Of a DNA stretch of 47,905 bases, positions 3,910 through 26,602 are shown piece by piece (position 1 is the first letter of the stretch; each line of letters begins with the position of its first letter). Origin of the DNA: Fimbriimonadaceae bacterium (GTDB taxonomy: Bacteria; Armatimonadota; Fimbriimonadia; Fimbriimonadales; Fimbriimonadaceae); the NCBI GenBank assembly GCA_025455775.1, contig JALOLT010000004.1, positions 1 through 47,905 of the forward strand, in the 5' to 3' direction. The notes beneath the pieces are model-generated. The model saw only the letters and a list, made by a program, of their open reading frames with translations. It did not search any database and was not told where the DNA came from. The position numbers were made by a program, and so were the translations under genes.

Positions 3910-5229
3910 TTACTTGGCTGATCTAAGGATCAAGACAGTATCTTCTCCTTTGTCCATCTCGTTATCGTCTCCACTATACCCATTATTACAAGTTCGGTCA
4001 AAACCTCCCACCCAAACTGTCAATTCTCTGCCTTCAGTTTTGAATTTCAACCGTTTCCCAGTTGTTAGGTCAATCTCGGTCTTCACCTGATCAGCATCAG
4101 GCCACGATCCTGTCTTGAGTCTGGTTTCCAATAGTTCCATACCCAGGATCGACGCACGTCGAAAGGATTCTGTCACGAGGTAGTCTAATAGCACGTCTCG
4201 GGATTCAGCAATTCCGAGTTCCCTCCCCCACTCATCGTCGAGGTCGAACCGCTTCACACTATCGGAGTAGAATGTCTGGAAATAGCCATCCAGTCGTATC
4301 GGGTCTGACTCTTGTTCCAGCTGACGCAACATTTTGCCGTAAACATTTAGCACTAACGTCGCGTAGTTATTTCTTTTCGAAGTTTCAAAGCTCCCATTAT
4401 CAGCTGGCCTAAAGGGTAATCCGGTCTCTGCTAAATTCTCTCGGAAGGATTCAGCAAAGGGATAGGTCATGACATATTGGTAGTCAAGAATCGCATAGTT
4501 GATAACACTTTCACGGGGAGCAAATTCTACGTCCATCTTTTTAAGAACCTCTTTAAAGAATGTCACGACTTCTGGACGCCCTTGCGAGGCATCTGCCATG
4601 GTGGCGATTCGCCTGGCCATTGACATTTTTCTCGTGCTGGATCGATTCACTGGGGCAACCCCAGGAACTTTCGAAAGAAGAGTCATCAGGTTCCAAGCAG
4701 CCCTTAGATCTGCCTCCGCCTCCTCAAAACTTCTTGTGTAGGCCAAGGCCCTCCCTCTTTCGAAAAGCAGGCCAGAAATTCTAAGAATTCTTTTTACAGT
4801 TTCCGATTCAAAATTAGTGGCGACATCGTCCGTGTGGAGATCAGGGTGGTGCAGAACTTGCATGGCACTGAGCCTCTTTGCCTCCTCCCAAATTTCCTTG
4901 AACTGTCGAGGATTTTCAATTCCTTCGCCGCGAAGGAGTCCGCGAGAAGAGACCACATTATCTGGCAGCTTCTCAACCAGAGGGTTTTTGATTAGTTTCA
5001 TCAACCCAGGTCCCGCGTTCGACCCCTTTTGAGCACTTTTCGCCTTCCAAACTTCTTCCATTGTGAGGGGCAAGCCAGCGCTTTTTGCCGATTCTTTGGC
5101 CTGAGCAAGCCGTACTTCCGGCGCGCGAAACCCGAGGTCAGAGCCAAAAATGAACCAAGCTCCGATTCCCAAAGTGGCAAACAGGACGGCAAGAATTCCC
5201 CCAACAGCAAACCATGCAACCTTTGGCAT
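3910..5229 (-). CDS. Membrane-anchored protein of unknown function, 439 aa
   Basis: The product has one N-terminal transmembrane helix (VAWFAVGGILAVLFATLGIG, residues about 4-23) and a large soluble part that should lie outside the cytoplasm. The soluble region is mostly charged and helical, with an Arg-rich stretch (NRSSTRKMSMARRIA) and a C-terminal segment rich in Asp and Gly (YSGDDNEMDKGEDTV). A similar acidic tail is common in membrane-anchored proteins of planctomycete and armatimonad genomes, but no named family could be assigned. The ATG at 5229 is chosen because it directly precedes the hydrophobic helix. Its promoter should lie in 5230-5360. Confidence 0.6.
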   Translation of the reverse strand: MPKVAWFAVGGILAVLFATLGIGAWFIFGSDLGFRAPEVRLAQAKESAKSAGLPLTMEEVWKAKSAQKGSNAGPGLMKLIKNPLVEKLPDNVVSSRGLLRGEGIENPRQFKEIWEEAKRLSAMQVLHHPDLHTDDVATNFESETVKRILRISGLLFERGRALAYTRSFEEAEADLRAAWNLMTLLSKVPGVAPVNRSSTRKMSMARRIATMADASQGRPEVVTFFKEVLKKMDVEFAPRESVINYAILDYQYVMTYPFAESFRENLAETGLPFRPADNGSFETSKRNNYATLVLNVYGKMLRQLEQESDPIRLDGYFQTFYSDSVKRFDLDDEWGRELGIAESRDVLLDYLVTESFRRASILGMELLETRLKTGSWPDADQVKTEIDLTTGKRLKFKTEGRELTVWVGGFDRTCNNGYSGDDNEMDKGEDTVLILRSAK

Positions 5230-5362
5230 GGCAGTTTCTACGGGATTGGTCGAGACCTAGTCTCACGAATTCGAAGCCAAGCTCAGAAATCGCCCCTCCC
5301 TGATTCTTAAAGCGTTTAGTCGAATCACATTCTCCTCCGGTCGGATTCCTTTGCCCAGTGGA

Positions 5363-5460
5363 GGCGCGCAGCCCGGGGGCGGCCCGGCCGAGTGGCGGGA
5401 ACGAAACCACCCAAGGTCGGAGCCGGGCGGGTGTGGCAGCGGGCCAGGGGTGCGCGCGCC
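5363..5460 (+). repeat. Copy A of a GC-rich element with paired ends (structured repeat)
   Basis: This ~98-bp element is far more GC-rich than its flanks. Its ends pair: GCGCGCA at 5364-5370 with TGCGCGC at 5451-5457. An inner helix is also possible: GCCCGGC near 5382 with GCCGGGC near 5422. Two related copies lie at 15211-15307 (opposite orientation) and 15410-15497. Shared blocks between A and the reverse complement of 15211-15307 include CCGGGGGCGG, CCCAAGGT and CCGGGCGGG in the same order and spacing. The arms differ between copies yet still pair. It sits in the gap between two minus-strand genes. It does not code for protein. Confidence 0.6.
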
Positions 5461-15011: not shown

Positions 15012-15210
15012 GGTTTCGTGTTGTTTGTTGTTTTGGCGGTTAAGTCTTTGGTTCGCGTGACCTAGCGTTTTCTTTCTCAAACCGGCGCGAGGGCAGGCGG
15101 CGTTAGGCGTCCGCCAGGGTTTTCCTTGATGTGGTTCGGGACTCACGAGATCTTCGACTTGACCTAAGGACAAACTTCATCTTGGTCAATTTGAGGGAGC
15201 AAGAACCAGC

Positions 15211-15307
15211 CTCGCGCTGCCCTCGCCCGGTGCCGCGCCCGCCCGGAACAAACCTTGGGCAACAGGTTCCCCACTTGGTCTCCGGGCCCGCCCCCGGACA
15301 GCGCGAG
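15211..15307 (-). repeat. Copy B of the paired-end GC-rich element (inverted orientation)
   Basis: The ends are inverted repeats: CTCGCGCTG at 15211-15219 pairs with CAGCGCGAG at 15299-15307. Read on the minus strand it aligns with copy A (5363-5460) over its whole length: CCGGGGGCGG, AGTGG, GGGAAC, CCCAAGGT, CCGGGCGGG and GGCA recur in order. The inner helix is GCCCGGA/TCCGGGC here and GCCCGGC/GCCGGGC in copy A, a compensated change. Confidence 0.6.
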
Positions 15308-15409
15308 CCTGCCAAGAGTCCTGCGCCGAGATTCCTCGCAGCGAGAATCAACGGATGGAGCTGGAGGATCGTAAAGGCAGCTGCCCCCATTGGTCCACCA
15401 CAGATCCCC

Positions 15410-15497
15410 GCGCCGCCAGGGGGCAGACCGGACGAGTGCTTGAATTTTGCTCACCAGACAGGGAACCGGTCGGGCGTGGCCGTGGGCCCGGCGGCGC
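15410..15497 (+). repeat. Copy C of the paired-end GC-rich element
   Basis: The outer arms are GCGCCGCC (15410-15417) and GGCGGCGC (15490-15497), perfectly complementary and different from the arms of copies A and B. An inner GACCGG/CCGGTC helix matches the position of the inner helix in the other copies. The internal order (CCGG, GAGTG, then CCGG-CGGGCGTGGC) follows copy A. It is the most diverged of the three. Confidence 0.5.
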
Positions 15498-15545
15498 AGG
15501 GGGCGAAAATGACTGCCTGCTCCAGTCAGACTCTGCCCCCCATCC

Positions 15546-15583
15546 AATCCCTTCCCCCAGCAAAAAGGCTGGGGGAAGGGATT
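15546..15583. terminator. Perfect 16-bp hairpin without a T-run
   Basis: AATCCCTTCC... at 15546-15561 is perfectly complementary to ...GGAAGGGATT at 15568-15583, with a six-base AAAAAG loop. It lies between convergent araD and the OMP gene. Neither strand has a following T-tract, so it is not a textbook intrinsic terminator. It could be a bidirectional transcript end or a 3' stabilising stem. Confidence 0.4.
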
Positions 15584-15671
15584 CCGGAGCTAACACGGCA
15601 GTCTCCCTGGCCGCAGGCCCGGCGGCGCGCAAAGAATAAACTCGCGAGGACCGAAGCCCCCAAAAGCAGAC

Positions 15672-25904: not shown

Positions 25905-26536
25905 AGGATTCAATCATTCCGCCGGACGTCAGAAACTCAGAACCACGCACAAAATGGCCATTTAGCAACCATTGAGTTACAGAGAGGGCAGGGAGAGACT
26001 CGTTCGGCGAAGTTACAGAGTAGCATATGGTGAGGCAGTTTCGGACCATCGGTCACGTCAGAAATCTAAAAGACCTAGGCAAAACATAGGACTTTCAGCT
26101 TTCCTGATTCCCGGAAGATTCGCTGGCCCCCAAAAGTCACACTCCTGACAGCTTTTGAAGCAAGGATGCCATCTCCGTACCTCCCTTCGGTTTCCGGGGG
26201 AGGGCGGTCCTAACGAAGACGAAATGGGCAGCTGTCTCTAAAGCGTTACGCTTATAAGAATGCAGTCCGATCGCGTCTTGGTGACCTTACTCACCCTCCT
26301 TAAAACTTACCTGCCCTGCCGAGGCGCAGCCCCGAAGCGCCAGCGGAGGGGAGGGCGTGGCAGGGATCTCACAAGAGTAAGAGGCGGCCTCTTTTACGCT
26401 TATAGGAATGCAGTCCGATCGCGTCTTGGTGACCTTACTCACCCCCCTTAAAACTTATACCTGCCCTGCCGAGGCGCAGCCCCGAAGCGCCAGCGGAGGG
26501 GAGGGCGTGGCCTCGGGGAGGCGGGGCAGGCATCTC
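25905..26536 (-). other. Long rpoB-rpoC spacer with probable rpoC promoters
   Basis: The spacer contains no convincing gene. From the rpoB end it holds the rpoB terminator, then two tandem units of about 130-145 bp, then about 330 bp of unique sequence before rpoC. A possible 11-codon ORF with a strong Shine-Dalgarno (GGAGG) lies at 26137-26172 on the minus strand, with a CCTCCC/GGGAGG stem covering that Shine-Dalgarno. The TATAAG at the downstream end of each repeat unit (minus strand) is a candidate -10 for rpoC. Confidence 0.5.
26246..26374 (-). repeat. Tandem direct repeat, unit 1 (rpoB-rpoC spacer)
   Basis: The sequence from TTACGCTTATAAGAATGCAG to the GATCTCA motif is nearly identical to the unit starting at 26394, 148 bp away. 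It includes GGTGA/TCACC arms and a CCCTGCC/GGCAGGG-ended GC-rich core (26310-26365) with an inner GGCGC/GCGCC hairpin. Unit 1 differs by single-base changes and lacks a ~20-bp insert found in unit 2. Confidence 0.85.
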
Positions 26537-26538: not shown

Positions 26539-26573
26539 AAAAGAAGGGTGCTGCCTCATTTGAGGCAGCACCC
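26537..26573 (-). terminator. Intrinsic terminator after rpoB
   Basis: GGGTGCTGCCTCA (26546-26558) and TGAGGCAGCACCC (26561-26573) are a perfect 13-bp inverted repeat with a 2-base centre. On the minus strand TTCTTTTTT follows the stem (26537-26545). It begins 30 bases past the rpoB stop. This would end most rpoB transcripts before rpoC. Confidence 0.9.
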
Positions 26574-26602
26574 AGAGTTCTGCTCACAGGCTCGATCTAT
26601 TC

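Follow-up and report, generated by a model that had tools for sequence, protein, structure and literature searches.

A dispersed intergenic hairpin element with covarying stems and a conserved G-tract core in Fimbriimonadaceae

What kind of element are the GC-rich intergenic repeats with paired, covarying arms that lie in a stretch of 47,905 nt (the window, meaning the whole stretch analysed) from a 2.99-Mb Armatimonadota genome (the own genome, G000)? This genome is Fimbriimonadaceae-like, and one protein of the window finds its closest relatives in Fimbriimonas and further Armatimonadetes genomes. A preliminary description had singled out three copies, starting at 5363 (+), 15211 (-) and 15410 (+), had taken the compensated changes, seen in several helices, as what either a conserved RNA fold or a repeat structured at the DNA level would leave, and had known no named family that fits. 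The three copies are present with the arms quoted there, at the slightly wider intervals of Table 1, and the observation holds and errs, if at all, on the side of caution. Rfam also holds no match for the element: at the gathering threshold the window yielded only a tRNA, and five element-bearing loci searched at E ≤ 1 yielded two chance matches, both outside the elements. The element is about 55-110 nt long and consists of a variable stem (P1), a core reading 5' GGC-R ... GGG-NNN-GGC-NNY-GGG 3', and a variable hairpin (P2).

Table 1. Copies of the element in the window, their parts and neighbouring features (CM, covariance model; E-values of the models built here are rough)
Feature	Interval	Strand	Evidence
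A-type copy	5361-5460	+	CM 66.1 bits, E 8.4e-11
B-type copy	15209-15309	-	CM 61.1 bits, E 8.2e-10
Spacer of inverted B'-C pair, ~95 bp	15310-15404		
C-type copy	15405-15502	+	CM 91.8 bits, E 7.8e-16
C-type copy, P1 arms	15410-15417 / 15490-15497	+	
C-type copy, core GGC (5' side)	15422-15424	+	
C-type copy, core R	15425	+	
C-type copy, P2 arms	15426-15431 / 15466-15471	+	
C-type copy, core GGG (3' side), then a loop	15472-15474	+	
C-type copy, core GGC, then a loop ending in Y	15478-15480	+	
C-type copy, core Y	15483	+	
C-type copy, core GGG	15484-15486	+	
Trailing segment, recurring alongside C-type copies elsewhere (e.g. C48, C159)	15503-15624		blastn
Tandem duplication in rpoB-rpoC spacer, ~150 bp	26268-26530		direct repeat visible
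Truncated copy	26308-26383	+	CM 14.5 bits, E 1.1
Fourth copy, divergent GAGGCGCAG subtype	26458-26532	+	CM 27.1 bits, E 0.0036
Intrinsic-terminator-like site	26540-26600	-	inverted repeat

The A-type copy is solitary and lies in the spacer after an open reading frame at 3910-5229 (-), followed by a GAAAAA tail. The B-type copy (P1 CTCGCGCTG/CAGCGCGAG, P2 GCCCGGA/TCCGGGC) and the C-type copy form an inverted pair, a unit that recurs elsewhere in the own genome; the trailing segment next to it has an inverted repeat of its own, CCTTCCCCCAGC..GCTGGGGGAAGG, and is found at other loci with 84-86% blastn identity over 190-221 bp. The fourth copy, in which the two P1 arms can be read along with the GGGCGTGGCCTCGGGG module, occupies the spacer between rpoB and rpoC (both identified by NCBIfam) and is antisense to both genes. 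The truncated copy is the 5' part of the element, without the last GGG tract and the 3' arm of P1, and each unit of the tandem duplication in this spacer holds an element start. The same spacer, about 690 bp long, also contains just after rpoB a site resembling an intrinsic terminator, an inverted repeat GGGTGCTGCCTCA/TGAGGCAGCACCC followed by TTCTTTTTT on the minus strand.

Here, we found that pairing in both P1 and P2 is real. Two-sided changes occur in 12 of the 19 modelled pairs among 53 copies, and in 18 of 19 among 106 aligned copies. In this larger alignment, which was fitted to a model already holding P1 and P2 and leans towards those stems, 91.6% of cells are paired as against 74.5% in shuffles, and sliding the partner columns by 1-3 positions reduces the paired cells to 23-46%. 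Whether the pair changes exceed what base composition alone would give had been raised as a point to test; doubly changed cells number 327 in the alignment as against 86.5 ± 15.3 after shuffling, and none of 500 shuffles reached the observed value of any measure. Because the alignment was model-fitted, the arms of different copies were also exchanged in a test free of any covariance model: in the relatives, P1 arms form 11.53 bp with their own partner and 5.30 ± 0.29 bp with swapped ones, and P2 arms 5.71 bp and 2.75 ± 0.15 bp, respectively, so that both helices covary as had been claimed. Thermodynamic z-scores of -1.7, -3.6 and -1.9 carry little meaning in such GC-rich DNA. A candidate third hairpin in the core (GAGG/CYUY) was rejected, as it pairs only partially and receives no mutual-information support in the relatives.

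The core is fixed in a different manner. Read by tract, it comprises T1 (GGC) followed by R, then P2, T2 (GGG), a loop, T3 (GGC), a loop ending in Y, and T4 (GGG); the 12 tract positions are conserved at 97-100% in 106 own-genome rows, while the loop columns are variable and the loops mostly 3 nt long (range 2-4). A mutual-information scan of the unmodelled core positions returned the R after T1 and the Y before T4 as the top pair by far, with z 71 in the relatives. This pair is Watson-Crick in 57 of 57 distinct relative cores, in 99 of 105 own-genome copies (G-C 53, A-U 46) and in 111 of 118 matches to an exact pattern, GGGCRGAN{8,38}GAGGGNNNGGCNNNGGGC, that does not demand it (G-C 64, A-T 47, G-T 5, A-C 1, G-G 1); among chance matches outside the family it is so in 2 of 12. 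Both the G-C and the A-T type recur in the own genome, in G023 and in the genus of G102-G108. Because the pair was never modelled, its covariation is independent support for the structure.

What could this core look like when folded? One strand carries four G tracts separated by short loops, as G-quadruplex sequences do, the remaining loop being the hairpin P2. We speculate that, once R-Y has formed, T1 and T4 would lie antiparallel, so that P1 would continue through two G.G steps, a C-G pair and the R-Y pair into P2. T2 and T3 could pair likewise across their 3-nt loop (G-C, G.G, G.G), and this GGG-NNN-GGC arm would dock on the G.G steps; bringing the G.G pairs of both sides together would, in the simplest arrangement, produce a two-layer G-quadruplex (two G quartets) plus a G:C:G:C layer between the two duplexes. 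The invariance of the tracts, the short variable loops and the topology suggest such a quadruplex inside a duplex. Covariation itself demonstrates only the R-Y pair and the stems; the quadruplex layering we infer from tract invariance and topology. The quadruplex option of ViennaRNA, which cannot treat a hairpin as one loop, preferred a nested fold for the one copy that has no P2.

Folding probably takes place on the G-rich strand. Mismatches in P1, read on that strand, are purine-purine in 56 cases and pyrimidine-pyrimidine in 11, a count to which composition and the alignment of the P1-core junction may contribute, and G.T exceeds A.C by 18 to 8 (p=0.08) and, at the R-Y pair, by 5 to 1. The bias speaks for a fold on that strand and fits RNA and single-stranded DNA alike.

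The element is abundant in the own genome. A blastn search with 15200-15510 gave 51 matches (E 6e-161 to 6e-5), and a covariance model built from 53 copies (R1) gave 110 at E ≤ 1, of which 92 had E ≤ 0.001, the E-values of our models being rough. This copy number is a lower bound, because the exact pattern turned up further copies; copies are also under-counted because the assembly is split into 170 contigs and a number of them stop within such repeats. Contigs C148, C68, C160 and C48 begin or end inside repeats, that is, the family breaks the assembly. Subtypes can be told apart: C (as at 15405), B (as at 15209), A-like, and a short form of 74-76 nt. Inverted B-C pairs occur about 10 times with their two copies some 50-280 bp apart; in several of them the spacer is conserved and homology extends further into the flanks. 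Among 22 close pairs (<1 kb) 14 are in -+ order and 2 more in +- order. Solitary C-type copies, like the subfamilies in G023, have interiors that are alike and flanks that are unrelated; the element stops where P1 does, on its outer side. Dispersal of a hairpin-sized unit leaves such a pattern. The exact C-type core was absent from the searched genome contigs and viral contigs outside the own genome, and subtype C therefore appears private to it. At three loci (L014, L024 and L025, on contigs C132, C139 and C62) the B'-C unit adjoins fragments of an Rhs/YD-repeat C-terminal core, an assignment read from translations such as DYDAFGNLISSTGTW..RYYDSSTGRFLTRD; B'-C units may have spread through duplication of Rhs cassettes.

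Is the element restricted to this one genome? A covariance-model search had been proposed in the preliminary description, with a lack of copies in relatives as one outcome that would speak against a conserved structure; built and run, the models found further copies in the own genome and in several related genera, in line with a conserved fold. Model R1 had no match in 60 relatives; copies in relatives surfaced only with a broader model of all subtypes (R2) and with patterns. R2 gave weak matches in six further genomes of the family, and a laxer search at E ≤ 1 counted 38 in G023, 13 in G098, 10 in G001, 8 in G025 and 5 in G102. On reading, these matches have the identical core type and quite different stems. 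With the exact pattern, and a carrier taken as a genome with at least 2 copies, the family holds 11 carriers: the own genome (15), G025 (17), G087 (3), G001 (6), G098 (15), G023 (24), G102 (5), G103 (4), G104 (6), G107 (2) and G108 (7). Across the 291 phylum genomes searched, a reversed-pattern control never exceeded 1 match per genome, and a looser pattern raised the counts to 68 in G023 and 33 in G025; filters were stricter in searches that spanned >40 genomes. The P1 stem is present in 18 of 19 fetched family matches and, at background level, in 1 of 11 lone matches from other families of the phylum or otherwise odd ones. Outside the family the exact pattern reached two or more copies in a single genome (G267, 3 matches), where the fetched match had no stems, and a general pattern in viral contigs gave 62 matches, 7 with a P1-like stem of at least 7 pairs and 1 with both stems, again background. 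Within the data searched, the element is therefore confined to part of one bacterial family, and its copy number ranges from 0 to ~100 between genera of that family.

Two genomes of one genus, G102 and G103 (88% identical), have occupied orthologous sites in common, at which the core is near-identical while the loops vary. At the G102 site 1,891,746 P1 is kept in both genomes and most of the inside is lost in G103; at another common site P2 alone is lost there. In these genomes the copies are therefore old, and internal deletions erode them. The one genus examined showed neither a recent insertion nor an empty site, and its copies look old and vertically inherited.

Taken together, we favour, with a probability of roughly 0.55, a non-autonomous, dispersed palindromic hairpin element that behaves like REP/BIME sequences and is mobilised in trans by an enzyme that we infer. 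Such an enzyme would have acted on the folded single strand, recognising it and then copying or relocating a hairpin-sized unit; the host may later have retained or exploited old copies, at mRNA 3' ends or in chromosome structure. This reading is weakened by the absence of Y1_Tnp, RVT_1 and TnpB-type domains from the own genome and of target-site duplications, by the old look of the copies in the one genus examined, and by a core conserved across genera above what would be expected for purely selfish relics, for which a host function could account. The fuller proposal, a natural, covariation-supported quadruplex-in-duplex family with up to ~100 copies per genome in one family, mobilised by an enzyme other than Y1/RAYT, is tentative, with the odds against it as a whole. 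That the element is instead a classical REP, spread by a RAYT (Y1/HuH) transposase since lost, is highly unlikely, although dispersed hairpins, inverted pairs, an unpaired tail and >100 copies are REP traits (PMC2817692, PMC3733652). A Pfam search with positive controls found no Y1_Tnp, RVT_1 or TnpB-type domain in the own genome, and among 85 family genomes Y1_Tnp occurs in 2 of 11 carriers as against 50 of 74 others (Fisher p=0.0026, with shared ancestry ignored); 9 of 11 carriers, the richest among them, lack it. Genus g19 is rich in Y1 transposases, with genomes holding as many as 26, and most carriers have none, an inverse pattern that may stem from lineage and not from exclusion. Nor do the ends of 103 copies carry a REP tag: GTAG was found once at the 5' end and never at the 3' end, CGTC 4 times and once, and GACG 3 and 10 times, with controls further out at 1-8. 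The units, at 55-110 nt with a complex core, also depart from the 20-40 nt of classical REPs. A target-site duplication, which would mark a MITE, was not detected, the mean longest flank repeat being 0.89 as against 0.86 ± 0.15 in shuffles.

The main rival, which we consider unlikely, is a host-functional structured RNA, regulatory or in 3' UTRs, transcribed at many loci from the G-rich strand. The complex core with its R-Y pair kept across genera, the near-identical cores with varying loops at the G102/G103 sites and the G.T exceptions, which point to the G-rich strand as the folded one, would all suit an RNA. However, the spread of copy numbers among genera and the unrelated flanks resemble mobile repeats, the inner part has been lost from two orthologous copies in G103, and a consistent position upstream of genes was not observed. 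The copies lie mostly between predicted genes, many of them 2-20 bp past a stop codon; within 100 bp of a stop, the 3' end of the element faces the gene end in 57 cases and the 5' end in 29 (p=0.003), a modest bias based on our own crude gene predictions, so that the transcript of the gene would more often hold the C-rich complement. Stable hairpins so often within 20 bp of a stop codon could also be transcription terminators or attenuators, perhaps bidirectional, but this is very improbable: the 3' flanks of solitary copies have A4 after P1 in 21 of 64 and T4 in 1 of 64, that is, an A run on the G-rich strand in place of a T run, the rpoB-rpoC copy sits downstream of a separate terminator-like hairpin, and termination leaves the covarying core unexplained. 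It is also improbable, if less so, that the copies are DNA-level chromosomal sites, folded or duplex, maintained because a nucleoid protein, a topoisomerase or a replication protein binds them, as proposed for REP/BIME of E. coli. Intergenic inverted pairs agree with this idea, as does a single switch of orientation along contig C1 of G025 (11 clear elements minus before ~997 kb, 3 plus after), a contig without GC skew. In G102 the G-rich strand is on the positive-skew side in 6 of 6 copies, which may reflect only the extreme skew of this genome; its contig C1 (loci L341-L360) has a GC skew that changes from ~+0.3 to ~-0.3 between the two replichores, which was not seen in the sampled G025 and G023. 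Against a chromosomal site, orientation showed no positive link with skew in the own genome (41/104) or in G023, and the patchy presence within the family speaks against a core chromosomal role.

How does the element compare with known systems? REP/BIME sequences are dispersed hairpins with inverted pairs, an unpaired tail and >100 copies (PMC2817692, PMC3733652, PMC8266576). The element resembles these REP/BIME systems with their RAYT (TnpA_REP) in its palindromes, which number >100 per genome and lie between genes, in its inverted pairs, in a tail left unpaired on one side and in compensatory stem changes, and differs from them in lacking the GTAG/CGTC tag, in being 2-4 times longer, in hosts mostly without Y1 transposase, and in its invariant GGC/GGG/GGC/GGG core with the covarying R-Y pair. 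Interspersed bacterial hairpins are usually credited to RAYT transposases, and a high-copy family in mostly RAYT-less genomes points to another route of spread. CGTC-tagged palindromes are likewise dispersed without a known dedicated transposase; the sections of their description that we could draw on report them from other phyla and do not describe a comparable core (PMC3733652). At the ends of the present element, unlike theirs, there is no clear CGTC tag. Among such repeats it is unusual for sequence and a single covarying pair to fix the core from genus to genus. ERIC/RU, bcr1, BOX and Correia are, like the element, dispersed non-coding repeats of ~100 bp, hairpin-like and with RNA-like folds; compared by description only, they differ from it in that it lacks a target-site duplication. 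The HEARO or omega RNA of IS200/IS605-type elements also exists as many non-coding structured copies per genome, as does the element, which differs in having no Rfam match at E ≤ 1 and in a host genome without a TnpB-type domain. In a comparison with integron attC sites by inspection, the stems read GTTTGCG..CGCAAAC, opposite to the attC box order, and the copies are scattered. The open-licence literature gave no description of such repeats in Armatimonadota, which is weak negative evidence, and Fimbriimonadaceae, a family almost without genetics, gain a marker of genome evolution. Finally, by structural analogy, the predicted fold recalls the Spinach and Chili aptamers and quadruplex-duplex hybrids, with G tracts between coaxial helices and a mixed layer beside G layers; those were selected in vitro or are unrelated, and here, where the quadruplex is proposed from sequence, the element offers a natural case for a direct test of a quadruplex held between two duplexes.
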